Positions 4,899 to 64,000 of a DNA stretch of 64,000 nucleotides are shown here, piece by piece. The translations under genes and the position numbers were made by a program. Source of the stretch: Siphonodentalium dalli (taxonomy: Eukaryota > Mollusca > Scaphopoda > Gadilida > Siphonodentaliidae); contig CP136061.1 of NCBI GenBank assembly GCA_032622095.1, positions 16,306,440 through 16,370,439 on the forward strand, given 5' to 3'. The notes under the pieces are model-generated. The model searched no databases. It saw nothing but the letters and a program-made list of their open reading frames with translations, and had not been told where the DNA came from. Numbering within the stretch: position 1 is the stretch's first letter; each line of letters starts with the position of its first letter.

Positions 4899-4968
<70 letters not shown>

Positions 4969-5704: not shown

Positions 5705-5790
5705 TATATATATTTATGAGAATGCATTGATTGGCCTAACAATTTTTTATAAATTTTTCTTACATTCTTTAACAATTTTTTATCATTTTT

Positions 5791-29345: not shown

Positions 29346-29367
29346 AATAACAAAACAAACAAACACA

Positions 29368-29850: not shown

Positions 29851-29872
29851 GCTTACTGAACTTAGTATCTGA

Positions 29873-32800
29873 ACATCTACCGAGTAACAGCTACCGAGTA
29901 ACATCTACCGAGTAACAGCTACCGAGTAACATCTACCGAGTAACAGCTACCGAGTAACATCTACCGAGTAACAGCTACCGAGTACAGCTACCGAGTAACA
30001 TCTACCGAGTAACAGCTACCGAGTAACATCTACCGAGTAACATCTACCGAGTAACATCTACCGAGTAACATCTACCGAGTAACATCTACCGAGTAACAGC
30101 TACCGAGTAACATCGACCGAGTAACATCTACCGAGTAACATCGACCGAGTAACATCTACCGAGTAACATCGACCGAGTAACATCGACCGAGTAACATCTA
30201 CCGAGTAACATCTACCGAGTAACATCGACCGAGTAACATCTACCGAGTAACATCGACCAAGTAACATCTACCGAGTAACATCTACCGAGTAACATCTACC
30301 GAGTAACATCTACCGAGTAACATCTACCGAGTAACAGCTACCGAGTAACAGCTACCGAGTAACATCTACCGAGTAACATCTACCGAGTAACATCTACCGA
30401 GTAACAGCTACCGAGTAACAGCTACCGAGTAACATCTACCGAGTAACAGCTACCGAGTAACATCTACCGAGTAACATCTACCGAGTAACATCTACCGAGT
30501 AACATCTACCGAGTAACATCTACCGAGTAACATCTACCGAGTAACAGCTACCGAGTAACATCTACCGAATAACATCTACCGAGTAACATCGACCGAGTAA
30601 CATCGACCGAGTAACATCTACCGAGTAACATCGACCGAGTAACATCTACCGAGTAACATCGACCGAGTAACATCTACACGAGTAACATCTACCGAGTAAC
30701 ATCTACCGAGTAACATCTACCGAGTAACATCTACCGAGTAACAGCTACCGAGTAACATCTACCGAGTAACATCTACCGAGTAACATCTACCGAGTAACAT
30801 CTACCGAGTAACAGCTACCGAGTAACAGCTACCGAGTAACATCTACCGAGTAACATCTACCGAGTAACATCTACCGAGTAACATCTACCGAGTAACATCT
30901 ACCGAGTAACATCTACCGAGTAACAGCTACCGAGTAACATCTACCGAGTAACAGCTACCGAGTAACATCTACCGAGTAACATCTACCGAGTAACATCTAC
31001 CGAGTAACATCTACCGAGTAACATCTACCGAGTAACATCTACCGAGTAACATCTACCGAGTAACAGCTACCGAGTAACATCTACCGAGTAACATCTACCG
31101 AGTAACATCTACCGAGTAACATCTACCGAGTAACATCGACCGAGTAACATCTACCGAGTAACATCTACCGAGTAACATCGACCGAGTAACAGCTACCGAG
31201 TAACATCTACCGAGTAACATCTACCGAGTAACATCTACCGAGTAACATCTACCGAGTAACATCTACCGAGTAACAGCTACCGAGTAACATCTACCGAGTA
31301 ACATCTACCGAGTAACATCTACCGAGTAACATCTACCGAGTAACATCGACCGAGTAACATCTACCGAGTAACATCGACCGAGTAACATCGACCGAGTAAC
31401 ATCGACCGAGTAACATCGACCGAGTAACATCTACCGAGTAACATCTACCGAGTAACATCGACCGAGTAACATCGACCGAGTAACATCGACCGAGTAACAT
31501 CTACCGAGTAACATCTACCGAGTAACATCGACCGAGTAACATCTACCGAGTAACATCGACCGAGTAACATCTACCGAGTAACAGCTACCGAGTAACAGCT
31601 ACCGAGTAACAGCTACCGAGTAACATCTACCGAGTAACAGCTACCGAGTAACAGCTACCGAGTAACAGCTACCGAGTAACATCTACCGAGTAACAGCTAC
31701 CGAGTAACAGCTACCGAGTAACATCTACCGAGTAACATCTACCGAGTAACATCTACCGAGTAACAGCTACCGAGTAACAGCTACCGAGTAACAGCTACCG
31801 AGTAACATCTACCGAGTAACATCTACCGAGTAACATCTACCGAGTAACATCTACCGAGTAACAGCTACCGAGTAACATCTACCGAGTAAAAGCTACCGAG
31901 TAACATCTACCGAGTAACATCTACCGAGTAACATCTACCGAGTAACAGGTACCGAGTAACATCTACCGAGTAACAGCTACCGAGTAACAGCTACCGAGTA
32001 ACATCTACCGAGTAACATCTACCGAGTAACATCTACCGAGTAACATCTACCGAGTAACAGCTACCGAGTAACATCTACCGAGTAACATCTACCGAGTAAC
32101 AGCTACCTAGTAACATCTACCGAGTAACATCTACCGAGTAACAGCTACCGAGTAACATCTACCGAGTAACATCTACCGAGTAACAGCTACCGAGTAACAG
32201 CTACCGAGTAACATCTACCGAGTAACAGCTACCGAGTAACAGGTACCGAGTAACATCTACCGAGTATAACATCTACCGAGTAACATCTACCGAGTAACAG
32301 GTACCGAGTAACATCTACCGAGTAACATCTACCGAGTATAACATCTACCGAGTAACATCTACCGAGTAACATCTACCGAGTAACATCTACCGAGTAACAT
32401 CTACCGAGTAACAGCTACCGAGTAACAGGTACCGAGTAACAGCTACCGAGTAACATCTACCGAGTAACATCTACCGAGTAACATCTACCGAGTAACATCT
32501 ACCGAGTAACAGGTACCGAGTAACATCTACCGAGTAACAGGTACCGAGTAACAGCTACCGAGTAACATCTACCGAGTAACAGCTACCGAGTAACAGCTAC
32601 CGAGTAACATCTACCGAGTAACATCTACCGAGTAACAGGTACCGAGTAACAGCTACCGAGTAACATCTACCGAGTAACAGCTACCGAGTAACAGGTACCG
32701 AGTAACAGCTACCGAGTAACAGGTACCGAGTAACAGCTACCGAGTAACATCTACCGAGTAACAGCTACCGAGTAACAGGTACCGAGTAACAGCTACCGAG

Positions 32801-33894
32801 TAACATCTACCGAGTAACAGCTACCGAGTAACAGCTACCGAGTAACAGCTACCGAGTAACAGCTACCGAGTAACATCTACCGAGTAACAGCTACCGAGTA
32901 ACAGCTACCGAGTAACATCTACCGAGTAACAGGTACCGAGTAACATCTACCGAGTAACAGCTACCGAGTAACAGCTACCGAGTAACAGCTACCGAGTAAC
33001 ATCTACCGAGTAACAGCTACCGAGTAACAGCTACCGAGTAACATCTACCGAGTAACAGGTACCGAGTAACATCTACCGAGTAACAGGTACCGAGTAACAT
33101 CTACCGAGTAACATCTACCGAGTAACATCTACCGAGTAACATCTACCGAGTAACATCTACCGAGTAACATCTACCGAGTAACAGCTACCGAGTAACAGGT
33201 ACCGAGTAACAGCTACCGAGTAACAGGTACCGAGTAACAGGTACCGAGTAACATCTACCGAGTAACAGGTACCGAGTAACAGGTACCGAGTAACATCTAC
33301 CGAGTAACAGGTACCGAGTAACATCTACCGAGTAACATCTACCGAGTAACATCTACCGAGTAACATCTACCGAGTAACATCTACCGAGTAACATCTACCG
33401 AGTAACATCTACCGAGTAACAGCTACCGAGTAACAGGTACCGAGTAACATCTACCGAGTAACAGGTACCGAGTAACATCTACCGAGTAACATCTACCGAG
33501 TAACATCTACCGAGTAACATCTACCGAGTAACATCTACCGAGTAACAGGTACCGAGTAACATCTACCGAGTAACATCTACCGAGTAACAGCTACCGAGTA
33601 ACATCTACCGAGTAACAGCTACCGAGTAACAGCTACCGAGTAACATCTACCGAGTAACAGCTACCGAGTAACAGGTACCGAGTAACAGCTACCGAGTAAC
33701 AGGTACCGAGTAACAGCTACCGAGTAACAGGTACCGAGTAACAGCTACCGAGTAACAGCTACCGAGTAACAGGTACCGAGTAACAGCTACCGAGTAACAG
33801 GTACCGAGTAACAGCTACCGAGTAACAGGTACCGAGTAACAGCTACCGAGTAACAGGTACCGAGTAACAGCTACCGAGTAACAGCTACCGAGTA
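29873..33894 (+). repeat. 14-bp satellite array, proximal block (4.0 kb)
   Basis: About 287 units of ACATCTACCGAGTA and variants (TCT, GCT, GGT, TCG at positions 4-6). TCG units are confined to 30111-31560. GGT units (which create GGTACC) first appear near 31946 and become common afterwards. The last ~230 bp alternate GCT and GGT units, a 28-bp dimer pattern. Occasional length changes include a TA insertion (GAGTATAACATC at about 32265 and 32337) and a 1-bp loss near 29984. No unit set is coding. Confidence 0.98.
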
Positions 33895-34660
33895 ATAATA
33901 ATAATAATGTATAGCATTTTTAAAGCGCCTTATCCCATGAGGCCCAAAGCGCTCAATGATACAACAGATGACCGAGCTCCAGCACATTTAAACACATATA
34001 CGCATGTACACACAAACAATAACTACAATGAAATAAATCAAACAATTCATATACAAATCAGGATGAAGGCTGTGTGTATTGTATAAAACAATGCAGGAAA
34101 TGTGTGCTCAGCTTTGGTCGTCGTCGTTGCCATAGTGAAGTTTAAACAGATACGTTTTGAGTTCTGTTTTGAAAGAGTCCAAAGTAGCAAAATTCCTAAG
34201 TGTAAGCGGGAGTGAATTCCAAAGGTTTGGGCCGTAGCATTCAAAAGATCGACGACCATAATTAACAAGGTCACGTTTGGGGACAGCAAGTAATATTTTA
34301 TCAGCTGACCTTAAGCCTGGTTTACCAGGTACATAGCATGAAAGAAGAGATTCGATATATACAGGGAGGGGCGAGAGACAGTCAAATTTCTTACAACATA
34401 AGACAGCAATTTTATAGTCAATGCGGGCTTGAATTGGTAGCCAGTGCAGTTCTTTGAACATTGGTGTCAGGTCAGAAAATTTAGGCTTCTTAAGAATCAC
34501 ACGAGCAGCAATGTTCATCATACGTTGAAGTTTATCAATTTCTGTCTTTGGTAAGCCAGCCAGAAGTGGGTTACAGTAGTCAATCTTGGAAAGAACAAAT
34601 GACGAAACAAGAGTTTTAGCAGCATCGGTGGTTATGAATGGCCTGATGTGAGAAATTCCG
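33895..34660 (-). mobile_element. LINE 3' fragment inserted in the 14-bp array
   Basis: A 766-bp minus-strand insertion splits the satellite. Its 3' end is an (ATT)n tail (+ strand AATAATAATAAT at 33895) preceded by a GCGCTTT...AAGGCGCTTT hairpin. That combination is typical of CR1/L2-type 3' ends. Satellite phase is lost at the join; no clear target duplication can be read because the flanks are repetitive. No second copy is present in the array, so it arrived after most local amplification. Confidence 0.85.
34108..34660 (-). pseudogene. LINE reverse transcriptase C-terminus (5'-truncated)
   Basis: About 183 codons are open from the 5' join to a TGA at 34108. They start ISHIRPFITTDAAKTLV, then SKIDYCNPLLAGLP, LHWLPIQARIDYKI, LRSADKILLAVP, YGRRSFECYGPNLWNSLP and FKTELKTYLF. 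These are the hallmark thumb/C-terminal phrases of CR1/Jockey-type LINE RT proteins. The catalytic palm, fingers and endonuclease are absent, so the fragment cannot be active. There are no stops or frameshifts, which points to a young insertion. An internal ATG at 34521 is not a true start. Confidence 0.9.
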
Positions 34661-37600
34661 AGGTACCGAGTAACATCTACCGAGTAACAGCTACCGAGTA
34701 ACAGGTACCGAGTAACAGCTACCGAGTAACATCTACCGAGTAACAGCTACCGAGTAACAGGTACCGAGTAACATCTACCGAGTAACATCTACCGAGTAAC
34801 ATCTACCGAGTAACATATACCGAGTAACAGGTACCGAGTAACAGCTACCGAGTAACAGGTACCGAGTAACAGCTACCGAGTAACATCTACCGAGTAACAG
34901 GTACCGAGTAACAGGTACCGAGTAACAGCTACCGAGTAACAGGTACCGAGTAACAGCTACCGAGTAACAGCTACCGAGTAACAGGTACCGAGTAACAGCT
35001 ACCGAGTAACAGCTACCGAGTAACAGCTACCGAGTAACAGCTACCGAGTAACAGCTACCGAGTAACAGGTACCGAGTAACAGCTACCGAGTAACAGGTAC
35101 CGAGTAACAGCTACCGAGTAACAGCTACCGAGTAACAGGTACCGAGTAACAGCTACCGAGTAACAGGTACCGAGTAACATCTACCGAGTAACATCTACCG
35201 AGTAACATCTACCGAGTAACAGCTACCGAGTAACATCTACCGAGTAACATCTACCGAGTAACATCTACCGAGTAACATCTACCGAGTAACATCTACCGAG
35301 TAACAGCTACCGAGTAACATCTACCGAGTAACATCTACCGAGTAACAGCTACCGAGTAACAGGTACCGAGTAACATCTACCGAGTAACAGCTACCGAGTA
35401 ACATCTACCGAGTAACATCTACCGAGTAACAGCTACCGAGTAACATCTACCGAGTAACATCTACCGAGTAACATCTACCGAGTAACAGGTACCGAGTAAC
35501 ATCTACCGAGTAACAGCTACCGAGTAACATCTACCGAGTAACATCTACCGAGTAACAGGTACCGAGTAACATCTACCGAGTAACAGGTACCGAGTAACAT
35601 CTACCGAGTAACAGCTACCGAGTAACAGGTACCGAGTAACATCTACCGAGTAACAGGTACCGAGTAACATCTACCGAGTAACATCTACCGAGTAACAGGT
35701 ACCGAGTAACATCTACCGAGTAACAGGTACCGAGTAACATCTACCGAGTAACATCTACCGAGTAACAGGTACCGAGTAACATCTACCGAGTAACATCTAC
35801 CGAGTAACATCTACCGAGTAACAGCTACCGAGTAACATCTACCGAGTAACATCTACCGAGTAACATCTACCGAGTAACATCTACCGAGTAACATCTACCG
35901 AGTAACAGGTACCGAGTAACATCTACCGAGTAACATCTACCGAGTAACATCTACCGAGTAACATCTACCGAGTAACATCTACCGAGTAACATCTACCGAG
36001 TAACAGCTACCGAGTAACATCTACCGAGTAACAGCTACCGAGTAACAGCTACCGAGTAACATCTACCGAGTAACATCTACCGAGTAACAGGTACCGAGTA
36101 ACATCTACCGAGTAACAGCTACCGAGTAACAGGTACCGAGTAACATCTACCGAGTAACATCTACCGAGTAACAGCTACCGAGTAACAGGTACCGAGTAAC
36201 ATCTACCGAGTAACAGGTACCGAGTAACATCTACCGAGTAACATCTACCGAGTAACAGGTACCGAGTAACATCTACCGAGTAACAGGTACCGAGTAACAG
36301 CTACCGAGTAACATCTACCGAGTAACATCTACCGAGTAACATCTACCGAGTAACATCTACCGAGTAACATCTACCGAGTAACAGGTACCGAGTAACATCT
36401 ACCGAGTAACATCTACCGAGTAACATCTACCGAGTAACAGCTACCGAGTAACATCTACCGAGTAACAGGTACCGAGTAACATCTACCGAGTAACATCTAC
36501 CGAGTAACATCTACCGAGTAACAGGTACCGAGTAACATCTACCGAGTAACAGGTACCGAGTAACATCTACCGAGTAACATCTACCGAGTAACAGGTACCG
36601 AGTAACATCTACCGAGTAACAGGTACCGAGTAACAGCTACCGAGTAACATCTACCGAGTAACATCTACCGAGTAACATCTACCGAGTAACATCTACCGAG
36701 TAACATCTACCGAGTAACAGGTACCGAGTAACATCTACCGAGTAACATCTACCGAGTAACATCTACCGAGTAACAGCTACCGAGTAACATCTACCGAGTA
36801 ACAGGTACCGAGTAACAGGTACCGAGTAACATCTACCGAGTAACAGGTACCGAGTAACATCTACCGAGTAACATCTACCGAGTAACAGCTACCGAGTAAC
36901 AGGTACCGAGTAACATCTACCGAGTAACAGGTACCGAGTAACATCTACCGAGTAACATCTACCGAGTAACAGGTACCGAGTAACATCTACCGAGTAACAG
37001 GTACCGAGTAACAGCTACCGAGTAACATCTACCGAGTAACATCTACCGAGTAACATCTACCGAGTAACATCTACCGAGTAACAGCTACCGAGTAACATCT
37101 ACCGAGTAACATCTACCGAGTAACAGCTACCGAGTAACATCTACCGAGTAACAGGTACCGAGTAACATCTACCGAGTAACATCTACCGAGTAACATCTAC
37201 CGAGTAACATCTACCGAGTAACATCTACCGAGTAACAGGTACCGAGTAACATCTACCGAGTAACATCTACCGAGTAACATCTACCGAGTAACAGCTACCG
37301 AGTAACATCTACCGAGTAACAGGTACCGAGTAACATCTACCGAGTAACATCTACCGAGTAACATCTACCGAGTAACAGGTACCGAGTAACATCTACCGAG
37401 TAACAGGTACCGAGTAACATCTACCGAGTAACATCTACCGAGTAACAGCTACCGAGTAACATCTACCGAGTAACAGCTACCGAGTAACAGCTACCGAGTA
37501 ACAGCTACCGAGTAACAGGTACCGAGTAACAGGTACCGAGTAACATCTACCGAGTAACATCTACCGAGTAACATCTACCGAGTAACAGGTACCGAGTAAC

Positions 37601-40600
37601 ATCTACCGAGTAACATCTACCGAGTAACATCTACCGAGTAACATCTACCGAGTAACATCTACCGAGTAACAGGTACCGAGTAACATCTACCGAGTAACAG
37701 GTACCGAGTAACATCTACCGAGTAACATCTACCGAGTAACAGGTACCGAGTAACAGGTACCGAGTAACAGGTACCGAGTAACATCTACCGAGTAACATCG
37801 ACCGAGTAACATCGACCGAGTAACAGGTACCGAGTAACAGGTACCGAGTAACAGCTACCGAGTAACAGCTACCGAGTAACATCTACCGAGTAACATCTAC
37901 CGAGTAACATATACCGAGTAACATCTACCGAGTAACAGGTACCGAGTAACATCGACCGAGTAACATCTACCGAGTAACATCTACCGAGTAACAGGTACCG
38001 AGTAACATCGACCGAGTAACATCTACCGAGTAACAGGTACCGAGTAACATCTACCGAGTAACAGCTACCGAGTAACATCTACCGAGTAACAGGTACCGAG
38101 TAACAGGTACCGAGTAACAGCTACCGAGTAACATCTACCGAGTAACAGCTACCGAGTAACATCTACCGAGTAACATCTACCGAGTAACATCTACCGAGTA
38201 ACATCTACCGAGTAACATCTACCGAGTAACATCTACCGAGTAACAGGTACCGAGTAACATCTACCGAGTAACATCTACCGAGTAACATCTACCGAGTAAC
38301 AGCTACCGAGTAACATCTACCGAGTAACAGGTACCGAGTAACATCTACCGAGTAACATCTACCGAGTAACATCTACCGAGTAACAGGTACCGAGTAACAT
38401 CTACCGAGTAACAGGTACCGAGTAACATCTACCGAGTAACATCTACCGAGTAACAGCTACCGAGTAACATCTACCGAGTAACAGCTACCGAGTAACAGCT
38501 ACCGAGTAACAGCTACCGAGTAACAGGTACCGAGTAACAGGTACCGAGTAACATCTACCGAGTAACATCTACCGAGTAACAGGTACCGAGTAACATCTAC
38601 CGAGTAACATCTACCGAGTAACAGGTACCGAGTAACAGCTACCGAGTAACATCTACCGAGTAACATCTACCGAGTAACAGCTACCGAGTAACAGCTACCG
38701 AGTAACATCTACCGAGTAACATCTACCGAGTAACATCTACCGAGTAACAGCTACCGAGTAACATCTACCGAGTAACATCTACCGAGTAACATCTACCGAG
38801 TAACATCTACCGAGTAACAGGTACCGAGTAACATCTACCGAGTAACATCTACCGAGTAACATCTACCGAGTAACAGGTACCGAGTAACATCTACCGAGTA
38901 ACATCTACCGAGTAACAGGTACCGAGTAACATCTACCGAGTAACATCTACCGAGTAACATCTACCGAGTAACATCTACCGAGTAACATCTACCGAGTAAC
39001 AGGTACCGAGTAACATCTACCGAGTAACAGGTACCGAGTAACATCTACCGAGTAACAGGTACCGAGTAACATCTACCGAGTAACATCTACCGAGTAACAT
39101 CTACCGAGTAACATCTACCGAGTAACATCTACCGAGTAACATCTACCGAGTAACATCTACCGAGTAACAGGTACCGAGTAACATCTACCGAGTAACATCT
39201 ACCGAGTAACATCTACCGAGTAACATCTACCGAGTAACAGGTACCGAGTAACATCTACCGAGTAACATATACCGAGTAACAGGTACCGAGTAACAGCTAC
39301 CGAGTAACATCTACCGAGTAACAACTACCGAGTAACAGCTACCGAGTAACATCTACCGAGTAACAGGTACCGAGTAACAGCTACCGAGTAACATCTACCG
39401 AGTAACAGGTACCGAGTAACATCTACCGAGTAACAGGTACCGAGTAACAGGTACCGAGTAACATCTACCGAGTAACAGGTACCGAGTAACATCTACCGAG
39501 TAACAGGTACCGAGTAACAGCTACCGAGTAACATCTACCGAGTAACAACTACCGAGTAACAGCTACCGAGTAACATCTACCGAGTAACAGGTACCGAGTA
39601 ACATCTACCGAGTAACAACTACCGAGTAACAGCTACCGAGTAACAGCTACCGAGTAACAGGTACCGAGTAACATCTACCGAGTAACATCTACCGAGTAAC
39701 ATCTACCGAGTAACATCTACCGAGTAACAGGTACCGAGTAACATCTACCGAGTAACATCTACCGAGTAACATCTACCGAGTAACATCTACCGAGTAACAG
39801 GTACCGAGTAACAGCTACCGAGTAACATCTACCGAGTAACATCTACCGAGTAACAGCTACCGAGTAACAGGTACCGAGTAACAGCTACCGAGTAACATCT
39901 ACCGATTAACATCTACCGAGTAACATCTACCGAGTAACATCTACCGAGTAACAGGTACCGAGTAACATCTACCGAGTAACAGGTACCGAGTAACATCTAC
40001 CGAGTAACATCTACCGAGTAACATCTACCGAGTAACATCTACCGATTAACATCTACCGAGTAACATCTACCGAGTAACAGGTACCGAGTAACATCTACCG
40101 AGTAACATCTACCGAGTAACATCTACCGAGTAACATCTACCGAGTATAACATCTACCGAGTAACATCTACCGAGTAACAGGTACCGAGTAACATCTACCG
40201 AGTAACATCTACCGAGTAACATCTACCGAGTAACATCTACCGAGTAACATCTACCGAGTAACAGGTACCGAGTAACAGCTACCGAGTAACATCTACCGAG
40301 TAACATCTACCGAGTAACAGCTACCGAGTAACAGGTACCGAGTAACAGCTACCGAGTAACATCTACCGAGTAACATCTACCGAGTAACATCTACCGAGTA
40401 ACATCTACCGAGTAACAGGTACCGAGTAACATCTACCGAGTAACAGGTACCGAGTAACATCTACCGAGTAACAGGTACCGAGTAACATCTACCGAGTAAC
40501 ATCTACCGAGTAACAGGTACCGAGTAACATCCACCGAGTAACAGCTACCGAGTAACATCTACCGAGTAACATCTACCGAGTAACATCTACCGAGTAACAG

Positions 40601-43600
40601 GTACCGAGTAACATCTACCGAGTAACAGGTACCGAGTAACATCTACCGAGTAACAGGTACCGAGTAACATCTACCGAGTAACAGGTACCGAGTAACATCT
40701 ACCGAGTAACATCTACCGAGTAACAGGTACCGAGTAACATCTACCGAGTAACATCTACCGAGTAACATCTACCGAGTAACAGGTACCGAGTAACATCTAC
40801 CGAGTAACATCTACCGAGTAACATCTACCGAGTAACATCTACCGAGTAACATCTACCGAGTAACAGCTACCGAGTAACATCTACCGAGTAACATCTACCG
40901 AGTAACATCTACCGAGTAACATCTACCGAGTAACATCTACCGAGTAACATCTACCGAGTAACATCTACCGAGTAACATCTACCGAGTAACATCTACCGAG
41001 TAACAGCTACCGAGTAACAGCTACCGAGTAACATCTACCGAGTAACATCTACCGAGTAACAGCTACCGAGTAACATCTACCGAGTAACATCTACCGAGTA
41101 ACAGGTACCGAGTAACATCTACCGAGTAACAGGTACCGAGTAACATCTACCGAGTAACAGGTACCGAGTAACAGGTACCGAGTAACATCCACCGAGTAAC
41201 ATCTACCGAGTAACATCGACCGAGTAACATCTACCGAGTAACATCTACCGAGTAACATCGACCGAGTAACATCGACCGAGTAACATCGACCGAGTAACAT
41301 CGACCGAGTAACATCTACCGAGTAACATCTACCGAGTAACATCGACCGAGTAACAGCTACCGAGTAACATCTACCGAGTAACATCTACCGAGTAACAGCT
41401 ACCTAGTAACATCTACCGAGTAACATCTACCGAGTAACAGCTACCGAGTAACATCTACCGAGTAACATCTACCGAGTAACAGCTACCGAGTAACAGCTAC
41501 CGAGTAACATCTACCGAGTAACAGCTACCGAGTAACAGGTACCGAGTAACATCTACCGAGTATAACATCTACCGAGTAACATCTACCGAGTAACAGGTAC
41601 CGAGTAACATCTACCGAGTATAACATCTACCGAGTATAACATCTACCGAGTAACATCTACCGAGTAACATCTACCGAGTAACATCTACCGAGTAACATCT
41701 ACCGAGTAACAGGTACCGAGTAACAGCTACCGAGTAACAGCTACCGAGTAACATCTACCGAGTAACATCTACCGAGTAACATCTACCGAGTAACAGGTAC
41801 CGAGTAACATCTACCGAGTAACATCTACCGAGTAACAGGTACCGAGTAACAGCTACCGAGTAACATCTACCGAGTAACAGCTACCGAGTAACAGGTACCG
41901 AGTAACAGCTACCGAGTAACAGGTACCGAGTAACAGGTACCGAGTAACATCTACCGAGTAACAGGTACCGAGTAACATCTACCGAGTAACATCTACCGAG
42001 TAACAGCTACCGAGTAACATCTACCGAGTAACAGCTACCGAGTAACAGGTACCGAGTAACAGCTACCGAGTAACAGGTACCGAGTAACAGCTACCGAGTA
42101 ACATCTACCGAGTAACATCTACCGAGTAACATCTACCGAGTAACATCTACCGAGTAACAGCTACCGAGTAACATCTACCGAGTAACAGCTACCGAGTAAC
42201 ATCTACCGAGTAACATCTACCGAGTAACAGGTACCGAGTAACATCTACCGAGTAACAGCTACCGAGTAACATCTACCGAGTAACAGCTACCGAGTAACAT
42301 CTACCGAGTAACAGGTACCGAGTAACAGGTACCGAGTAACAGGTACCGAGTAACATCTACCGAGTAACATCTACCGAGTAACAGCTACCGAGTAACATCT
42401 ACCTAGTAACAGGTACCGAGTAACAGCTACCGAGTAACAGCTACCGAGTAACAGGTACCGAGTAACAGCTACCGAGTAACATCTACCGAGTAACAGGTAC
42501 CGAGTAACAGGTACCGAGTAACATCTACCGAGTAACAGGTACCGAGTAACATCTACCGAGTAACATCTACCGAGTAACAGCTACCGAGTAACATCTACCG
42601 AGTAACAGCTACCGAGTAACAGGTACCGAGTAACAGCTACCGAGTAACAGGTACCGAGTAACATCTACCGAGTAACATCTACCGAGTAACATCTACCGAG
42701 TAACAGGTACCGAGTAACAGCTACCGAGTAACATCTACCGAGTAACATCTACCGAGTAACATCTACCGAGTAACATCTACCGAGTAACAGCTACCGAGTA
42801 ACATCTACCGAGTAACAGCTACCGAGTAACAGGTACCGAGTAACAGCTACCGAGTAACAGCTACCGAGTAACAGGTACCGAGTAACAGCTACCGAGTAAC
42901 ATCTACCGAGTAACAGCTACCGAGTAACAGGTACCGAGTAACAGCTACCGAGTAACAGGTACCGAGTAACAGGTACCGAGTAACATCTACCGAGTAACAG
43001 GTACCGAGTAACATCTACCGAGTAACATCTACCGAGTAACAGCTACCGAGTAACAGCTACCGAGTAACATCTACCGAGTAACAGCTACCGAGTAACAGGT
43101 ACCGAGTAACATCTACCGAGTAACATCTACCGAGTAACATCTACCGAGTAACATCTACCGAGTAACATCTACCGAGTAACAGCTACCGAGTAACATCTAC
43201 CGAGTAACAGGTACCGAGTAACAGGTACCGAGTAACAGCTACCGAGTAACAGGTACCGAGTAACATCTACCGAGTAACATCTACCGAGTAACATCTACCG
43301 AGTAACAGGTACCGAGTAACATCTACCGAGTAACATCTACCGAGTAACAGGTACCGAGTAACATCTACCGAGTAACATCTACCGAGTAACATCTACCGAG
43401 TAACAGCTACCGAGTAACATCTACCGAGTAACATCTACCGAGTAACAGGTACCGAGTAACATCTACCGAGTAACATCTACCGAGTAACAGCTACCGAGTA
43501 ACAGCTACCGAGTATAACATCTACCGAGTAACATCTACCGAGTAACATCTACCGAGTAACATCTACCGAGTAACAGGTACCGAGTAACATCTACCGAGTA

Positions 43601-46600
43601 ACATCTACCGAGTAACATCTACCGAGTAACAGGTACCGAGTAACATCTACCGAGTAACATCTACCGAGTAACAGCTACCGAGTAACATCTACCGAGTAAC
43701 AGCTACCGAGTAACAGGTACCGAGTAACAGCTACCGAGTAACAGGTACCGAGTAACAGGTACCGAGTAACATCTACCGAGTAACATCTACCGAGTAACAG
43801 GTACCGAGTAACATCTACCGAGTAACATCTACCGAGTAACAGGTACCGAGTAACAGGTACCGAGTAACAGCTACCGAGTAACATCTACCGAGTAACAGCT
43901 ACCGAGTAACAGCTACCGAGTAACATCTACCGAGTAACATCTACCGAGTAACATCTACCGAGTAACAGCTACCGAGTAACATCTACCGAGTAACATCTAC
44001 CGAGTAACAGGTACCGAGTAACATCTACCGAGTAACATCTACCGAGTAACATCTACCGAGTAACATATACCGAGTAACAGGTACCGAGTAACAGCTACCG
44101 AGTAACATCTACCGAGTAACAGGTACCGAGTAACATCTACCGAGTAACATCTACCGAGTAACATCTACCGAGTAACATCTACCGAGTAACAGGTACCGAG
44201 TAACAGCTACCGAGTAACATCTACCGAGTAACAACTACCGAGTAACAGCTACCGAGTAACAGCTACCGAGTAACATCTACCGAGTAACATCTACCGAGTA
44301 ACAGGTACCGAGTAACATCTACCGAGTAACATCTACCGAGTAACAGGTACCGAGTAACATCTACCGAGTAACATCTACCGAGTAACAGGTACCGAGTAAC
44401 AGGTACCGAGTAACAGCTACCGAGTAACATCTACCGAGTAACAGCTACCGAGTAACATCTACCGAGTAACATCTACCGAGTAACATCTACCGAGTAACAG
44501 CTACCGAGTAACAGCTACCGAGTAACAGGTACCGAGTAACATCTACCGAGTAACATCTACCGAGTAACATCTACCGAGTAACATCTACCGAGTAACAGGT
44601 ACCGAGTAACATCTACCGAGTAACATCTACCGAGTAACATCTACCGAGTAACATCTACCGAGTAACAGGTACCGAGTAACATCTACCGAGTAACATCTAC
44701 CGAGTAACATCTACCGAGTAACATCTACCGAGTAACATCTACCGAGTAACAGGTACCGAGTAACAGCTACCGAGTAACATCTACCGAGTAACAGGTACCG
44801 AGTAACATCTACCGAGTAACATCTACCGAGTAACAGGTACCGAGTAACATCCACCGAGTAACAGCTACCGAGTAACATCTACCGAGTAACATCTACCGAG
44901 TAACATCTACCGAGTAACAGGTACCGAGTAACATCTACCGAGTAACAGGTACCGAGTAACATCTACCGAGTAACAGGTACCGAGTAACATCTACCGAGTA
45001 ACAGGTACCGAGTAACATCTACCGAGTAACATCTACCGAGTAACAGGTACCGAGTAACATCTACCGAGTAACATCTACCGAGTAACATCTACCGAGTAAC
45101 AGGTACCGAGTAACATCTACCGAGTAACATCTACCGAGTAACATCTACCGAGTAACATCTACCGAGTAACATCTACCGAGTAACAGCTACCGAGTAACAT
45201 CTACCGAGTAACATCTACCGAGTAACATCTACCGAGTAACATCTACCGAGTAACATCTACCGAGTAACATCTACCGAGTAACATCTACCGAGTAACATCT
45301 ACCGAGTAACATCTACCGAGTAACAGCTACCGAGTAACATCTACCGAGTAACATCTACCGAGTAACAGCTACCGAGTAACATCTACCGAGTAACATCTAC
45401 CGAGTAACATCTACCGAGTAACAGGTACCGAGTAACATCTACCGAGTAACAGGTACCGAGTAACATCTACCGAGTAACAGGTACCGAGTAACAGGTACCG
45501 AGTAACATCCACCGAGTAACATCTACAGAGTAACAGGTACCGAGTAACATCTACCGAGTAACATCTACCGAGTAACAGGTACCGAGTAACAGGTACCGAG
45601 TAACATCCACCGAGTAACATCTACCGAGTAACATCTACCGAGTAACATCTACCGAGTAACAGCTACCGAGTAACATCTACCGAGTAACATCTACCGAGTA
45701 ACATCTACCGAGTAACATCTACCGAGTAACGAGTAACATCTACCGAGTAACATCTACCGAGTAACAGCTACCGAGTAACATCTACCGAGTAACGAGTAAC
45801 ATCTACCGAGTAACATCTACCGAGTAACAGCTACCGAGTAACATCTACCGAGTAACATCTACCGAGTAACATCCACCGAGTAACATCTACCGAGTAACAT
45901 CTACCGAGTAACATCTACCGAGTAACAGGTACCGAGTAACATCTACCGAGTAACAGGTACCGAGTAACATCCACCGAGTAACATCTACCGAGTAACATCT
46001 ACCGAGTAACATCTACCGAGTAACAGGTACCGAGTAACATCTACCGAGTAACATCCACCGAGTAACATCTACCGAGTAACATCTACCGAGTAACATCTAC
46101 CGAGTAACATCCACCGAGTAACATCTACCGAGTAACATCTACCGAGTAACATCCACCGAGTAACATCCACCGAGTAACATCCACCGAGTAACATCTACCG
46201 AGTAACATCTACCGAGTAACATCTACCGAGTAACATCCACCGAGTAACATCCACCGAGTAACATCTACCGAGTAACATCTACCGAGTAACATCTACCGAG
46301 TAACAGGTACCGAGTAACATCTACCGAGTAACAGGTACCGAGTAACATCTACCGAGTAACAGGTACCGAGTAACAGGTACCGAGTAACATCTACCGAGTA
46401 ACATCTACCGAGTAACATCCACCGAGTAACATCCACCGAGTAACATCTACCGAGTAACATCTACCGAGTAACATCTACCGAGTAACATCTACCGAGTAAC
46501 ATCTACCGAGTAACATCTACCGAGTAACAGGTACCGAGTAACATCTACCGAGTAACAGGTACCGAGTAACATCTACCGAGTAACAGGTACCGAGTAACAG

Positions 46601-49600
46601 GTACCGAGTAACATCCACCGAGTAACATCTACCGAGTAACAGGTACCGAGTAACATCTACCGAGTAACATCTACCGAGTAACAGGTACCGAGTAACAGGT
46701 ACCGAGTAACATCCACCGAGTAACATCTACCGAGTAACAGGTACCGAGTAACATCTACCGAGTAACATATACCGAGTAACAGGTACCGAGTAACATCTAC
46801 CGAGTAACATCTACCGAGTAACAGGTACCGAGTAACATCTACCGAGTAACATCTACCGAGTAACAGCTACCGAGTAACATCTACCGAGTAACATCTACCG
46901 AGTAACATCTACCGAGTAACATCTACCGAGTAACATCTACCGAGTAACATCTACCGAGTAACATCTACCGAGTAACATCTACCGAGTAACATCTACCGAG
47001 TAACAGCTACCGAGTAACATCTACCGAGTAACATCTACCGAGTAACATCTACCGAGTATAACATCTACCGAGTAACATCTACCGAGTAACAGCTACCGAG
47101 TAACATCTACCGAGTAACATCTACCGAGTAACATCTACCGAGTAACATCTACCGAGTAACATCTACCGAGTAACATCTACCGAGTAACAGGTACCGAGTA
47201 ACATCTACCGAGTAACAGGTACCGAGTAACAGGTACCGAGTAACATCTACCGAGTAACATCTACCGAGTAACAGGTACCGAGTAACATCTACCGAGTAAC
47301 ATCTACCGAGTAACAGGTACCGAGTAACATCTACCGAGTAACATCTACCGAGTAACATCTACCGAGTAACATCTACCGAGTAACATCTACCGAGTAACAT
47401 CTACCGAGTAACAGCTACCGAGTAACAGGTACCGAGTAACATCTACCGAGTAACAGCTACCGAGTAACAGCTACCGAGTAACATCTACCGAGTAACAGGT
47501 ACCGAGTAACATCTACCGAGTAACATCTACCGAGTAACATCTACCGAGTAACATCTACCGAGTAACAGGTACCGAGTAACAGCTACCGAGTAACAGGTAC
47601 CGAGTAACATCTACCGAGTAACAGGTACCGAGTAACATCTACCGAGTAACATCTACCGAGTAACATCTACCGAGTAACATCTACCGAGTAACATCTACCG
47701 AGTAACATCTACCGAGTAACATCTACCGATTAACATCTACCGAGTAACATCTACCGAGTAACAGCTACCGAGTAACAGCTACCGAGTAACATCTACCGAG
47801 TAACATCTACCGAGTAACATCTACCGAGTAACATCTACCGAGTAACAGGTACCGAGTAACATCTACCGAGTAACATCTACCGAGTAACAGGTACCGAGTA
47901 ACAGCTACCGAGTAACAGGTACCGAGTAACATCTACCGAGTAACAGGTACCGAGTAACATCTACCGAGTAACATCTACCGAGTAACAGCTACCGAGTAAC
48001 ATCTACCGAGTAACATCTACCGAGTAACATCTACCGAGTAACATCTACCGAGTAACAGCTACCGAGTAACATCTACCGAGTAACATCTACCGAGTAACAT
48101 CTACCGAGTAACATCTACCGAGTAACAGGTACCGAGTAACATCTACCGAGTAACATCTACCGAGTAACATCTACCGAGTAACATCTACCGAGTAACATCT
48201 ACCGAGTAACAGGTACCGAGTAACAGCTACCGAGTAACAGGTACCGAGTAACATCTACCGAGTAACATCTACCGAGTAACATCTACCGAGTAACAGCTAC
48301 CGAGTAACATCTACCGAGTAACAGGTACCGAGTAACAGGTACCGAGTAACAGGTACCGAGTAACAGCTACCGAGTAACATCGACCGAGTAACATCTACCG
48401 AGTAACATCGACCGAGTAACATCTACCGAGTAACATCGACCGAGTAACATCGACCGAGTAACATCTACACGAGTAACATCTACCGAGTAACATCTACCGA
48501 GTAACATCTACCGAGTAACATCTACCGAGTAACATCTACCGAGTAACAGCTACCGAGTAACATCGACCGAGTAACATCTACCGAGTAACATCGACCGAGT
48601 AACATCTACCGAGTAACATCGACCGAGTAACATCTACCGAGTAACATCGACCGAGTAACATCGACCGAGTAACATCTACCGAGTAACATCTACCGAGTAA
48701 CATCTACCGAGTAACAGCTACCGAGTACAGCTACCGAGTAACATCTACCGAGTAACATCTACCGAGTAACAGCTACCGAGTAACATCTACCGAGTAACAT
48801 CTACCGAGTAACATCTACCGAGTAACATCTACCGAGTAACATCTACCGAGTAACAGCTACCGAGTACAGCTACCGAGTAACATCTACCGAGTAACATCTA
48901 CCGAGTAACAGCTACCGAGTAACATCTACCGAGTAACATCTACCGAGTAACATCTACCGAGTAACATCTACCGAGTAACATCTACCGAGTAACTGCTACC
49001 GAGTAACATCTACCGAGTAACATCTACCGAGTAACATCTACCGAGTAACATCTACCGAGTAACAGCTACCGAGTAACATCGACCGAGTAACATCTACCGA
49101 GTAACATCGACCGAGTAACATCTACCGAGTAACATCGACCGAGTAACATCTACCGAGTAACATCGACCGAGTAACATCGACCGAGTAACATCTACCGAGT
49201 AACATCTACCGAGTAACATCGACCGAGTAACATCTACCGAGTAACATCGACCAAGTAACATCTACCGAGTAACATCTACCGAGTAACATCTACCGAGTAA
49301 CATCTACCGAGTAACATCTACCGAGTAACAGCTACCGAGTAACAGCTACCGAGTAACATCTACCGAGTAACATCTACCGAGTAACATCTACCGAGTAACA
49401 GCTACCGAGTAACAGCTACCGAGTAACATCTACCGAGTAACAGCTACCGAGTAACATCTACCGAGTAACATCTACCGAGTAACATCTACCGAGTAACATC
49501 TACCGAGTAACATCTACCGAGTAACATCTACCGAGTAACAGCTACCGAGTAACATCTACCGAATAACATCTACCGAGTAACATCGACCGAGTAACATCGA

Positions 49601-52600
49601 CCGAGTAACATCTACCGAGTAACATCGACCGAGTAACATCTACCGAGTAACATCGACCGAGTAACATCGACCGAGTAACATCTACACGAGTAACATCTAC
49701 CGAGTAACATCTACCGAGTAACATCTACCGAGTAACATCTACCGAGTAACAGCTACCGAGTAACATCTACCGAGTAACATCTACCGAGTAACATCTACCG
49801 AGTAACATCTACCGAGTAACAGCTACCGAGTAACAGCTACCGAGTAACATCTACCGAGTAACATCTACCGAGTAACAGGTACCGAGTAACATCTACCGAG
49901 TAACATCTACCGAGTAACATCTACCGAGTAACATCTACCGAGTAACATCTACCGAGTAACAGGTACCGAGTAACAGCTACCGAGTAACATCTACCGAGTA
50001 ACAGGTACCGAGTAACATCTACCGAGTAACAGGTACCGAGTAACATCTACCGAGTAACAGGTACCGAGTAACATCTACCGAGTAACATCTACCGAGTAAC
50101 AGGTACCGAGTAACATCCACCGAGTAACAGCTACCGAGTAACATCTACCGAGTAACATCTACCGAGTAACATCTACCGAGTAACAGGTACCGAGTAACAT
50201 CTACCGAGTAACAGGTACCGAGTAACATCTACCGAGTAACAGGTACCGAGTAACATCTACCGAGTAACAGGTACCGAGTAACATCTACCGAGTAACATCT
50301 ACCGAGTAACAGGTACCGAGTAACATCTACCGAGTAACATCTACCGAGTAACATCTACCGAGTAACAGGTACCGAGTAACATCTACCGAGTAACATCTAC
50401 CGAGTAACATCTACCGAGTAACATCTACCGAGTAACAGCTACCGAGTAACATCTACCGAGTAACATCTACCGAGTAACATCTACCGAGTAACATCTACCG
50501 AGTAACATCTACCGAGTAACATCTACCGAGTAACATCTACCGAGTAACATCTACCGAGTAACATCTACCGAGTAACAGCTACCGAGTAACAGCTACCGAG
50601 TAACAGCTACCGAGTAACATCTACCGAGTAACATCTACCGAGTAACAGCTACCGAGTAACATCTACCGAGTAACATCTACCGAGTAACATCTACCGAGTA
50701 ACAGGTACCGAGTAACATCTACCGAGTAACAGGTACCGAGTAACATCTACCGAGTAACAGGTACCGAGTAACAGGTACCGAGTAACATCCACCGAGTAAC
50801 ATCTACCGAGTAACAGGTACCGAGTAACATCTACCGAGTAACATCTACCGAGTAACAGGTACCGAGTAACAGGTACCGAGTAACATCCACCGAGTAACAT
50901 CTACCGAGTAACATCTACCGAGTAACATCTACCGAGTAACAGCTACCGAGTAACATCTACCGAGTAACATCTACCGAGTAACATCTACCGAGTAACATCT
51001 ACCGAGTAACGAGTAACATCTACCGAGTAACATCTACCGAGTAACAGCTACCGAGTAACATCTACCGAGTAACGAGTAACATCTACCGAGTAACATCTAC
51101 CGAGTAACAGCTACCGAGTAACATCTACCGAGTAACATCTACCGAGTAACATCTACCGAGTAACATCCACCGAGTAACATCTACCGAGTAACATCTACCG
51201 AGTAACATCTACCGAGTAACATCTACCGAGTAACAGGTACCGAGTAACATCTACCGAGTAACAGGTACCGAGTAACATCCACCGAGTAACATCTACCGAG
51301 TAACATCTACCGAGTAACATCTACCGAGTAACAGGTACCGAGTAACATCTACCGAGTAACATCCACCGAGTAACATCTACCGAGTAACATCTACCGAGTA
51401 ACATCTACCGAGTAACATCCACCGAGTAACATCTACCGAGTAACATCTACCGAGTAACATCCACCGAGTAACATCCACCGAGTAACATCCACCGAGTAAC
51501 ATCTACCGAGTAACATCTACCGAGTAACATCTACCGAGTAACATCCACCGAGTAACATCCACCGAGTAACATCTACCGAGTAACATCTACCGAGTAACAT
51601 CTACCGAGTAACAGGTACCGAGTAACATCTACCGAGTAACAGGTACCGAGTAACATCTACCGAGTAACAGGTACCGAGTAACAGGTACCGAGTAACATCT
51701 ACCGAGTAACATCTACCGAGTAACATCCACCGAGTAACATCCACCGAGTAACATCTACCGAGTAACATCTACCGAGTAACATCTACCGAGTAACATCTAC
51801 CGAGTAACATCTACCGAGTAACATCTACCGAGTAACATCTACCGAGTAACATCTACCGAGTAACATCTACCGAGTAACATCTACCGAGTAACATCTACCG
51901 AGTAACAGGTACCGAGTAACATCCACCGAGTAACATCTACCGAGTAACATCTACCGAGTAACAGGTACCGAGTAACAGGTACCGAGTAACATCCACCGAG
52001 TAACATCTACCGAGTAACAGGTACCGAGTAACATCTACCGAGTAACATCTACCGAGTAACAGGTACCGAGTAACAGGTACCGAGTAACATCCACCGAGTA
52101 ACATCTACCGAGTAACAGGTACCGAGTAACATCTACCGAGTAACATCTACCGAGTAACAGGTACCGAGTAACATCTACCGAGTAACATCTACCGAGTAAC
52201 AGGTACCGAGTAACATCTACCGAGTAACATCTACCGAGTAACAGCTACCGAGTAACATCTACCGAGTAACATCTACCGAGTAACATCTACCGAGTAACAT
52301 CTACCGAGTAACATCTACCGAGTAACATCTACCGAGTAACATCTACCGAGTAACATCTACCGAGTAACAGCTACCGAGTAACAGCTACCGAGTAACATCT
52401 ACCGAGTAACAGCTACCGAGTAACATCTACCGAGTAACATCTACCGAGTAACATCTACCGAGTAACATCTACCGAGTATAACATCTACCGAGTAACATCT
52501 ACCGAGTAACATCTACCGAGTAACAGCTACCGAGTAACATCTACCGAGTAACATCTACCGAGTAACATCTACCGAGTAACAGCTACCGAGTAACATCTAC

Positions 52601-55600
52601 CGAGTAACATCTACCGAGTAACATCTACCGAGTATAACATCTACCGAGTAACATCTACCGAGTAACAGCTACCGAGTAACATCTACCGAGTAACATCTAC
52701 CGAGTAACATCTACCGAGTAACATCTACCGAGTAACATCTACCGAGTAACATCTACCGAGTAACAGGTACCGAGTAACATCTACCGAGTAACAGGTACCG
52801 AGTAACAGGTACCGAGTAACATCTACCGAGTAACATCTACCGAGTAACAGGTACCGAGTAACATCTACCGAGTAACATCTACCGAGTAACAGGTACCGAG
52901 TAACATCTACCGAGTAACATCTACCGAGTAACAGGTACCGAGTAACAGGTACCGAGTAACATCTACCGAGTAACAGCTACCGAGTAACAGCTACCGAGTA
53001 ACATCTACCGAGTAACAGGTACCGAGTAACATCTACCGAGTAACATCTACCGAGTAACATCTACCGAGTAACATCTACCGAGTAACAGGTACCGAGTAAC
53101 AGCTACCGAGTAACAGGTACCGAGTAACATCTACCGAGTAACAGGTACCGAGTAACATCTACCGAGTATCATCTACCGAGTAACATCTACCGAGTAACAT
53201 CTACCGAGTAACATCTACCGAGTAACATCTACCGAGTAACATCTACCGATTAACATCTACCGAGTAACATCTACCGAGTAACAGCTACCGAGTAACAGCT
53301 ACCGAGTAACATCTACCGAGTAACATCTACCGAGTAACATCTACCGAGTAACATCTACCGAGTAACAGGTACCGAGTAACATCTACCGAGTAACATCTAC
53401 CGAGTAACAGGTACCGAGTAACAGCTACCGAGTAACAGGTACCGAGTAACATCTACCGAGTAACAGGTACCGAGTAACATCTACCGAGTAACATCTACCG
53501 AGTAACAGCTACCGAGTAACATCTACCGAGTAACATCTACCGAGTAACATCTACCGAGTAACATCTACCGAGTAACAGCTACCGAGTAACATCTACCGAG
53601 TAACATCTACCGAGTAACATCTACCGAGTAACATCTACCGAGTAACAGGTACCGAGTAACATCTACCGAGTAACATCTACCGAGTAACATCTACCGAGTA
53701 ACATCTACCGAGTAACATCTACCGAGTAACAGGTACCGAGTAACAGCTACCGAGTAACATCTACCGAGTAACATCTACCGAGTAACATCTACCGAGTAAC
53801 AGCTACCGAGTAACATCTACCGAGTAACAGGTACCGAGTAACAGGTACCGAGTAACAGGTACCGAGTAACAGCTACCGAGTAACAGGTACCGAGTAACAG
53901 CTACCGAGTAACATCTACCGAGTAACATCTACCGAGTAACAGGTACCGAGTAACATCTACCGAGTAACAGGTACCGAGTAACATCTACCGAGTAACAGGT
54001 ACCGAGTAACATCTACCGAGTAACATCTACCGAGTAACAGCTACCGAGTAACATCTACCGAGTAACATCTACCGAGTAACATCTACCGAGTAACATCTAC
54101 CGAGTAACATCTACCGAGTAACAGCTACCGAGTAACATCTACCGAGTAACATCTACCGAGTAACATCTACCGAGTAACATCTACCGAGTAACATCTACCG
54201 AGTAACAGGTACCGAGTAACATCTACCGAGTAACATCTACCGAGTAACATCTACCGAGTAACATCTACCGAGTAACAGCTACCGAGTAACATCTACCGAG
54301 TAACATCTACCGAGTAACATCTACCGAGTAACATCTACCGAGTAACATCTACCGAGTAACAGGTACCGAGTAACATCTACCGAGTAACATCTACCGAGTA
54401 ACATCTACCGAGTAACATCTACCGAGTAACATCTACCGAGTAACATCTACCGAGTAACAGGTACCGAGTAACATCTACCGAGTAACATCTACCGAGTAAC
54501 ATCTACCGAGTAACATCTACCGAGTAACATCTACCGAGTAACATCTACCGAGTAACAGCTACCGATTAACAGCTACCGAGTAACAGGTACCGAGTAACAT
54601 CTACCGAGTAACAGGTACCGAGTAACAGGTACCGAGTAACATCTACCGAGTAACATCTACCGAGTAACATCTACCGAGTAACATCTACCGAGTAACATCT
54701 ACCGAGTAACATCTACCGAGTAACATCTACCGAGTAACATCTACCGAGTAACAGCTACCGAGTAACATCTACCGAGTAACATCTACCGAGTAACAGGTAC
54801 CGAGTAACATCTACCGAGTAACAGCTACCGAGTAACAGGTACCGAGTAACATCTACCGAGTAACATCTACCGAGTAACAGCTACCGAGTAACAGGTACCG
54901 AGTAACATCTACCGAGTAACAGCTACCGAGTAACAGGTACCGAGTAACATCTACCGAGTAACATCTACCGAGTAACATCTACCGAGTAACATCTACCGAG
55001 TAACAGCTACCGAGTAACAGCTACCGAGTAACAGCTACCGAGTAACATCTACCGAGTAACAGCTACCGAGTAACATCTACCGAGTAACAGCTACCGAGTA
55101 ACATCTACCGAGTAACAGCTACCGAGTAACATCTACCGAACATCTACCGAGTAACATCTACCGAGTAACATCTACCGAACATCTACCGAGTAACATCTAC
55201 CGAGTAACAGCTACCGAGTAACATCTACCGAGTAACAGCTACCGAGTAACAGCTACCGAGTAACAGCTACCGAGTAACATCTACCGAGTAACAGCTACCG
55301 AGTAACATCTACCGAACATCTACCGAGTAACATCTACCGAGTAACATCTACCGAACATCTACCGAGTAACATCTACCGAGTAACAGGTACCGAGTAACAT
55401 CTACCGAGTAACATCTACCGAGTAACCGGTACCGAGTAACATCTACCGAGTAACAGCTACCGAGTAACAGGTACCGAGTAACATCTACCGAGTAACAGCT
55501 ACCGAGTAACATCTACCGAGTAACATCTACCGAGTAACATCTACCGAGTAACATCTACCGAGTAACATCTACCGAGTAACATCTACCGAGTAACAGGTAC

Positions 55601-61600: not shown

Positions 61601-64000
61601 CTACCGAGTAACATCTACCGAGTAACAGGTACCGATTAACAGGTACCGAGTAACATCTACCGAGTAACATCTACCGAGTAACATCTACCGAGTAACATCT
61701 ACCGAGTAACATCTACCGAGTAACATCTACCGAGTAACAGGTACCGAGTAACATCTACCGAGTAACAGCTACCGAGTAACATCTACCGAGTAACATCTAC
61801 CGAGTAACATCTACCGAGTAACATCTACCGAGTAACAGCTACCGAGTAACATCTACCGAGTAACATCTACCGAGTAACATCTACCGAGTAACATCTACCG
61901 AGTAACAGGTACCGAGTAACATATACCGAGTAACATCTACCGAGTAACAGCTACCGAGTAACATCTACCGAGTAACATCTACCGAGTAACATCTACCGAG
62001 TAACATCTACCGAGTAACATCTACCGAGTAACAGCTACCGAGTAACATCTACCGAGTAACAGCTACCGAGTAACATCTACCGAGTAACAGGTACCGAGTA
62101 ACATCTACCGAGTAACATCTACCGAGTAACATCTACCGAGTAACATCTACCGAGTAACATCTACCGAGTAACATCTACCGAGTAACATCTACCGAGTAAC
62201 ATCTACCGAGTAACATCTACCGAGTAACATCTACCGAGTAACAGGTACCGAGTAACATCTACCGAGTAACAGGTACCGAGTAACATCTACCGAGTAACAG
62301 CTACCGAGTAACATCTACCGAGTAACAGGTACCGAGTAACATCTACCGAGTAACAGGTACCGAGTAACATCTACCGAGTAACATCTACCGAGTAACATCT
62401 ACCGAGTAACAGGTACCGAGTAACATGTACCGAGTAACATCTACCGAGTAACATCTACCGAGTAACATCTACCGAGTAACAGGTACCGAGTAACATCTAC
62501 CGAGTAACATCTACCGAGTAACATCTACCGAGTAACATCTACCGAGTAACATCTACCGAGTAACATCTACCGAGTAACATCTACCGAGTAACAGGTACCG
62601 AGTAACAGCTACCGAGTAACATCTACCGAGTAACATCTACCGAGTAACATCTACCGAGTAACATCTACCGAGTAACATCTACCGAGTAACATCTACCGAG
62701 TAACAGCTACCGAGTAACATCTACCGAGTAACAGCTACCGAGTAACAGGTACCGAGTAACATCTACCGAGTAACATCTACCGAGTAACATCTACCGAGTA
62801 ACATCTACCGAGTAACAGCTACCGAGTAACATCTACCGAGTAACATCTACCGAGTAACATCTACCGAGTAACATCTACCGAGTAACAGCTACCGAGTAAC
62901 ATCTACCGAGTAACATCTACCGAGTAACATCTACCGAGTAACATCTACCGAGTAACATCTACCGAGTAACAGGTACCGAGTAACATCTACCGAGTAACAT
63001 CTACCGAGTAACAGGTACCGAGTAACATCTACCGAGTAACAGCTACCGAGTAACATCTACCGAGTAACAGGTACCGAGTAACATCTACCGAGTAACAGCT
63101 ACCGAGTAACATCTACCGAGTAACATCTACCGAGTAACAGCTACCGAGTAACATCTACCGAGTAACATCTACCGAGTAACATCTACCGAGTAACAGGTAC
63201 CGAGTAACATCTACCGAGTAACATCTACCGAGTAACATCTACCGAGTAACATATACCGAGTAACATCTACCGAGTAACAACTACCGAGTAACAGCTACCG
63301 AGTAACAGCTACCGAGTAACATCTACCGAGTAACAACTACCGAGTAACAGCTACCGAGTAACATCTACCGAGTAACATCTACCGAGTAACAGCTACCGAG
63401 TAACATCTACCGAGTAACATCTACCGAGTAACATCTACCGAGTAACAGGTACCGAGTAACAGCTACCGAGTAACAGGTACCGAGTAACAGCTACCGAGTA
63501 ACATCTACCGAGTAACAGCTACCGAGTAACATCTACCGAGTAACATCTACCGAGTAACAGGTACCGAGTAACATCTACCGAGTAACATCTACCGAGTAAC
63601 AGGTACCGAGTAACATCTACCGAGTAACAGGTACCGAGTAACATCTACCGAGTAACAGGTACCGAGTAACATCTACCGAGTAACAGGTACCGAGTAACAT
63701 CTACCGAGTAACAGGTACCGAGTAACATCTACCGAGTAACAGGTACCGAGTAACATCTACCGAGTAACATCTACCGAGTAACATCTACCGAGTAACAGCT
63801 ACCGAGTAACAGCTACCGAGTAACATCTACCGAGTAACATCTACCGAGTAACATCTACCGAGTAACATCTACCGAGTAACATCTACCGAGTAACAGGTAC
63901 CGAGTAACATCTACCGAGTAACATCCACCGAGTAACATCTACCGAGTAACATCTACCGAGTAACATCTACCGAGTAACATCTACCGAGTAACAGGTACCG
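34661..64000 (+). repeat. 14-bp satellite array, distal block (29.3 kb, open-ended)
   Basis: About 2,095 units continue to the last base of the window. Main variants are ACATCT, ACAGCT and ACAGGT; rarer ones are ACATCG, ACATCC, ACATAT and ACAACT. Variants cluster in domains: TCG at 37797-38013, 41214-41350 and 48379-49670; TCC mainly at 45508-46711 and 50115-52091. Multi-kilobase blocks recur (see findings). Length variants include GAGTATAAC (+2), GAGTAACGAGTAAC (+7, 45728/45790 and 51008/51070) and CCGAACATC (-3, about 55136-55356, 56960, 57250). Short minus-strand open frames occur only where every third unit lacks TAG. They are not genes. Confidence 0.98.
48379..49670 (+). repeat. TCG-variant domain duplicated from the array's proximal edge
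   Basis: ACATCGACCGAGTA units are interspersed here and share private mutations with 30111-31560: ATCGACCAAGTA, CTACCGAATAAC, CTACACGAG and the 1-bp loss GAGTACAGC. It sits between two copies of a ~3.6-kb block, so it appears as an inserted segment. Confidence 0.85.

Follow-up and report, generated by a model that had tools for sequence, protein, structure and literature searches.

The window, by which we mean the whole stretch of 64,000 nucleotides of Siphonodentalium dalli DNA that was analysed, carries two candidate exons, two short tandem arrays and then an array of a 14-bp unit, all of it in a single orientation, that runs from 29872 to the window end at 64000 (33.4 kb in the unit parse) and is interrupted by one LINE-like insert. 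The features, from left to right, are:

22897-22983, + strand: candidate exon 2, phase 1-1, with the weak donor TAG/GTATTA (PWM score 3.2)
28720-28893, + strand: candidate exon 3, phase 1-1, with the donor CTG/GTGAGT
28894-28982, + strand: possible unspliced extension of exon 3, with a stop at 28980-28982 and an AATAAA at 29099; a rival terminal exon
29122-29344, + strand: 22-bp array, 10.1 copies, 93% match (TRF)
29367-29851, + strand: 40-bp array, 12.1 copies, 98% match, one AATAAA per unit (TRF)
29872-33895, + strand: 14-bp array, left part, consensus AACATCTACCGAGT (TRF and unit parse)
33896-34660, - strand: putative 5'-truncated non-LTR retrotransposon (LINE-like), 765 bp, from reading the sequence
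34661-64000, + strand: 14-bp array, right part, continuing past the window end (TRF and unit parse)

The 14-bp array and its interruption

TRF called one 14-bp array at 29872-63993 (2434 periods, 92% match, score 55269), a call that spans the LINE-like insert as well as the repeat. Parsing the repeat by wrap-around alignment gave 2,386 units, three of them partial, split between 29872-33895 and 34661-64000. The left edge is sharp and its first unit equals the consensus; the final bases of the window are still array, so that the array is open-ended and its right edge lies outside the window. The first-pass annotation had described an open-ended array of about 2,380 units with one interruption, and the parse, the single 765-bp insert and the last bases of the window all agree with it; the array lies where it was placed, the exact start alone being corrected, from 29873 to 29872 by both TRF and the parse. 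The proposed one CpG and one GAGTAAC per unit also held, to within a few per cent (2,433 and 2,345, respectively, in 33,362 bp of array). Chance could not have produced a repeat of this extent. Head-to-tail copies of one unit, in the same orientation over many kb, make it a satellite, or minisatellite.

Seven unit types, distinguished solely at positions 5-7, account for 2,347 of the 2,386 units, the other 11 positions being hardly variable. The commonest, AACATCTACCGAGT, makes up 1,457 of the 2,386, and the variants carry GGT (412 units), GCT (374), TCG (51), TCC (36), TAT (11) or ACT (6) at positions 5-7. In the 2,355 indel-free units of full length, positions 1, 8, 12 and 14 are invariant; variants at any one of the remaining seven positions outside 5-7 number no more than 9 (9 at position 13, 5 at position 11). 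Indels are borne by 28 units, including a TA insertion in 12, and rare variants are scattered along the whole array.

Several other identities were rejected. The array is not a telomeric repeat, its unit being a different 14-mer and no two adjacent copies of TTAGGG or CCCTAA occurring within the window. A coding function was rejected on the longest stop-free run, which is 39 aa on the plus strand and 97 aa on the minus strand (counted over 34663-64000), and a plain higher-order repeat on a best match of 0.478, at lag 2, against 0.421 expected (lags 1-1599). A 27-mer of the array matched no stretch in viral contigs and none in prokaryote contigs, a tRNA scan and an Rfam scan (gathering cut-offs) of the window gave no matches, and the open-licence literature yielded no paper on the 14-bp unit sequence or on 14-bp satellite DNA in molluscs.

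The insert at 33896-34660, which we tentatively take to be a LINE from its C-terminal motifs, comprises, in this order, an unbroken C-terminal ORF of about 184 codons, a 3' UTR and, at 33896, an (ATT)n tail; the ORF matched no Pfam family above cut-off. The 13 array bases on either side of it agree at 12 of 13 positions, which would fit an imperfect target-site duplication or the loss of 1 bp of target. No second copy of the insert is present in the array, and the best match to similar DNA in the left part of the window was of 17 bp (E 0.23). No copied block was found across the insert, which is consistent with, and short of proof of, a late insertion. Another retrotransposon, with a long frame still open, lies on the minus strand at 10628-12121, where a 497-aa open frame matches a reverse transcriptase (PF00078, E 1.2e-10).

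The 22-bp, 40-bp and 14-bp arrays stand in a row, about 20 bp apart, and have unrelated units, as three separate tandem expansions. More tandem arrays lie at 3915-7170, 19519-20237, 20326-20660 and 24463-24840, with units of about 155-164, 141, 17 and 129 bp, respectively. The region around the array is rich in independent arrays.

Growth and turnover of the array

For block comparison, the array was rewritten as a string of unit types. In this string 28.1% of the units belong to 20-unit words found at least twice; 20 shuffles averaged 0.3% (maximum 1.8%), and 20 order-2 Markov strings averaged 0.1% (maximum 1.7%). There were 18 gapless self-matches scoring at least 22, the best of them 71.1; 17 of the 18 exceeded the best score obtained in three order-2 Markov strings (22.6), 12 of them by more than 8. 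Mismatched units are present in nine of these self-matches and the other nine are mismatch-free. The copied blocks reach about 3.6 kb, are present twice or more and lie 0.3-19 kb apart, including the following:

30109-30866, + strand: recurring block of 54 units, with a second copy 19 kb away at 49103-49874 that differs by the gain or loss of one unit and by no substitution
44776-48376, + strand: recurring block, found again at 50042-53882, with 247 identical units, 9 substituted and 16 gap runs of 1-3 units
45882-46526, + strand: sub-block inside the preceding one, with an unchanged copy at 51190-51834

The stretch 40400-41198 also recurs, in part, at 44776 and at 49986. Counts of gaps and substitutions depend on the alignment penalties and on the stretches having been picked for their likeness; read in this way, gapped alignment of seven hand-chosen stretch pairs gave 487 identical units, 12 substituted units and 36 units lying in 29 gap runs, each of 1-3 units, and another count, over 9 of 16 seed clusters that overlapped in part and had been trimmed to exact ends, gave 414 identical units, 10 gap units (in runs of 2, 1, 1, 1; 4; 1) and 3 substituted units. 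Of the 12 substituted units in the first count, five show a single-base change, six show a two-base change, which is a unit-type switch, and one is a TA insertion. The difference between block copies is thus mostly the gain or loss of units, which is ordinary minisatellite turnover, and the two-base type switches fit conversion better than point mutation. Within this one haplotype, block copies and unit gains and losses together mark homogenisation by turnover within the array.

We consider it probable that the array is a very long minisatellite (a short-unit satellite) in animal DNA that also holds a probable gene, and that it was grown and homogenised by within-array recombination and template switching. 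The small changes would come from slippage or synthesis-dependent strand annealing, and the duplication at an offset of about 5.3 kb from unequal exchange; conversion or template switching would account for the 19-kb jump. The array would be young, and no function need be assumed for it. Rates, youth and the order of events are what we infer from one haplotype.

Long tandem arrays are often misassembled, and the array could in principle be an assembly product, collapsed, expanded or misjoined. We hold this to be very improbable. No exact repeat inside the array is longer than 655 bp, so reads of several kb could order every part of it, each part being uniquely placed, and both the single LINE-like insert and the private variants spread through the array argue against an artefact. 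A point that does count against the turnover reading is the confinement of the common variants to positions 5-7, which plain neutral turnover does not predict. Six of the seven alleles with at least 6 copies fall there. With a window width of 3 picked after inspecting the data, the clustering of common alleles in any 3-base window gave P values of 0.014, 0.0014, 0.0014 and 0.0015 at copy thresholds of 3, 4, 5 and 6, and of 0.0021, 0.0019, 0.014 and 0.079 at thresholds of 7, 10, 20 and 50; a Fisher test of the clustering at positions 5-7, its window picked in the same way, gave P 1e-4. We regard this confinement as suggestive, not as strong.

The same pattern, with positions 1, 8, 12 and 14 invariant in all 2,355 full units and P values of 0.0014-0.0021 at thresholds 4, 5, 6, 7 and 10, favours a different reading, in which the 14-bp unit would contain a functional core of 11 bp, ACCGAGTAACA, that a protein binds or that acts as a start of amplification, with positions 5-7 as a free spacer and core-bearing units alone being kept or spread. 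Conserved satellite motifs have been proposed as promoters of rearrangement in nematodes, in the part of that work cited here (PMC3694981), which would lend this reading some precedent. We nevertheless find it unlikely. The P value rises to 0.014 at thresholds 3 and 20, and to 0.079 at 50, the width of 3 was chosen post hoc, and a founder effect is still possible because there are few independent mutations; the core itself varies in the few units noted above at positions 13 and 11. The left 29.9 kb, which precedes the array, has the core at eight places, each time with 2 mismatches, which says little. It is slightly more doubtful still that the 11-bp core ACCGAGTAACA, putatively protein-binding or recombination-starting, was itself what spread and maintained the satellite, with positions 5-7 drifting freely and the array forming a landing pad of at least 34 kb with about 2,390 sites inside a gene. 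Growth by within-array turnover stays our main reading.

The upstream exons and the end of the transcript

The nearest upstream coding exon had been placed at 28720-28893 with a strong phase-1 donor, and both its coordinates and its phase stand. Scored with a PWM of assumed frequencies, its donor ranks 5th of the 1,780 GT sites in the left 29.9 kb; for the exon 2 donor, 289 of the 1,780 sites score equal or better with the same PWM. Pyrimidines make up 85% of the stretch before the acceptor of exon 3 and 60% of that before exon 2, and the two exons join in frame through a Gly codon. Single-sequence AlphaFold modelling of exon 3 alone gave four strands (mean pLDDT 76.4, pTM 0.45), and a four-strand sheet is plausible as the predicted structure. 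A fold search of the PDB with the exon protein returned 56 matches at E up to 10, none of them at or below 0.001 and the best at 0.84. No homologue was found in Pfam, in the PDB by sequence (one match, E 1.5) or in viral or prokaryote contigs, all of them poor places to find a homologue of an animal gene, and of the 6 viral and 50 prokaryote stretches that matched the exon-protein pattern none was confirmed. A gene is likely to be present upstream of the array, of a family that Pfam and the contig searches did not name.

The satellite starts less than 1 kb after exon 3 and makes up 95% of the 35.1 kb visible after it; no downstream exon is visible in the window, where the array runs to the end. 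The claim of an intron of at least 35 kb, nearly all satellite, is sustained in part: the strong donor, the pyrimidine-rich acceptor tract of exon 3, the symmetric 1-1 phase, the in-frame exon 2, the plausible four-strand sheet and the satellite share speak for it, whereas the next exon was not seen, the exon 2 donor is weak, the searches above gave no homologue, and 13 AATAAA and the stop at 28980 intervene. On this evidence we lean, by a little, towards the satellite lying within an intron of the gene with exons 22897-22983 and 28720-28893.

The region between exon 3 and the satellite, 28894-29871, contains 13 AATAAA and one ATTAAA, 12 of the AATAAA coming from the 40-bp array; the 28,893 bp upstream contain 24 AATAAA and 21 ATTAAA. 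The twelve AATAAA at 29404-29849 on the plus strand are the top count of any 600-bp stretch in the window (50-bp steps), and neither AATAAA nor ATTAAA occurs within the 14-bp array. This cluster would speak against transcription reaching the array. Furthermore, GGT-type units create a donor-like CAG/GTACCG with a score of 4.5, above 91% of sites, and CAGGT occurs 416 times in the array; decoy splicing within the array may be possible, since the acceptor-like stretches that precede AG there reach up to 65% pyrimidine, a value between those of exon 2 and exon 3.

Early polyadenylation would be a serious rival to the huge repetitive RNA suggested in the first-pass annotation, because of the AATAAA cluster, the stop at 28980 and the possible decoy splicing. 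The transcript would then end before the satellite, which would be intergenic or a rarely transcribed tail, and we give this somewhat less than an even chance. The reading of exon 3 would run 29 codons beyond the donor, as far as the stop at 28980, with the RNA cleaved after the AATAAA at 29099; or else the 12 further AATAAA, one per 40-bp unit and extending to 29844, would stop read-through ahead of an array that holds no such signal. Against this, poly(A) sites near a good donor tend to be suppressed, and the donor at 28893 is among the five best in the left part of the window; the coding status of the 29 added codons is putative; and the tandem AATAAA may represent one chance hexamer multiplied. 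The intronic placement keeps our slight preference, and the AATAAA-bearing 40-bp array just before the satellite makes early 3' ends directly testable.

Comparison with known systems

By its structure, the array belongs with variant-repeat minisatellites such as human MSY1, and is ordinary in kind though long. In the part of the MSY1 work cited here (PMC2599865), that minisatellite and similar ones have unit types in blocks, gain and lose 1-3 units and switch types, with conversion by strand annealing proposed. The present array differs in having 2,386 units, about 30 times the 77 repeats of a progenitor MSY1 allele, and in its block copies on the kb scale, and is represented by one haplotype. 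Human tandem arrays of at least 10 kb, in the portion of PMC2588610 used here, are likewise tens of kb long, some having hidden domain or higher-order structure and some lying wholly in an intron; their unit differs, and the intronic human cases come from a table of large-unit arrays, mostly above 2 kb. The nematode satellites, as treated in the cited part of PMC3694981, share a constant motif amid variable repeats, their conserved motifs being CENP-B-box-like and recurring across different satellites, whereas here there is one satellite, with a putative core known from its own sequence.

The Drosophila genes kl-3 and kl-5 have gigantic satellite-filled introns of megabases on the Y chromosome, and their transcription has been shown, according to the sections cited here (PMC6508621; PMC11207136). 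As in these genes (PMC6508621), a short-unit satellite adjoins coding exons and may be intronic; by contrast, our candidate intron is of at least 35 kb, has 13 AATAAA before the array and is known from sequence alone. If the satellite is intronic, the gene would be a test of splicing across satellite outside the fly Y-chromosome setting. More generally, a short-unit array of at least 33 kb that is readable unit by unit is a good natural record of satellite growth, one from which the succession of block copies, unit gains and the single LINE-like insert could be worked out given data from relatives or further haplotypes.

Folding of six 141-nt stretches, three per strand, gave z scores against shuffles of -2.63, -3.48 and 0.35 for minus-strand RNA and of 0.00, -0.79 and 0.24 for plus-strand RNA. 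On the minus strand, the RNA of 33700-33840 and 37000-37140, two stretches with several GCT or GGT units, is more stably folded than its shuffles (z -3.48 and -2.63), and that of a TCT-rich stretch is not (z 0.35).

The rare variants were collapsed by hand from 23 listed units into 17 events, 3 of them transitions and 9 of them C:G to A:T. Germline changes usually favour transitions. The 3 of 17 do not depart from the one third expected if all changes are alike (P 0.21) and are below an assumed 60% (P 0.0006). Since only one CpG transition event was seen among the 17, the array bears no sign of CpG decay, which at this number of events is a note rather than a result. Most of the rare base changes in the array, 14 of the 17 hand-collapsed events, are transversions.
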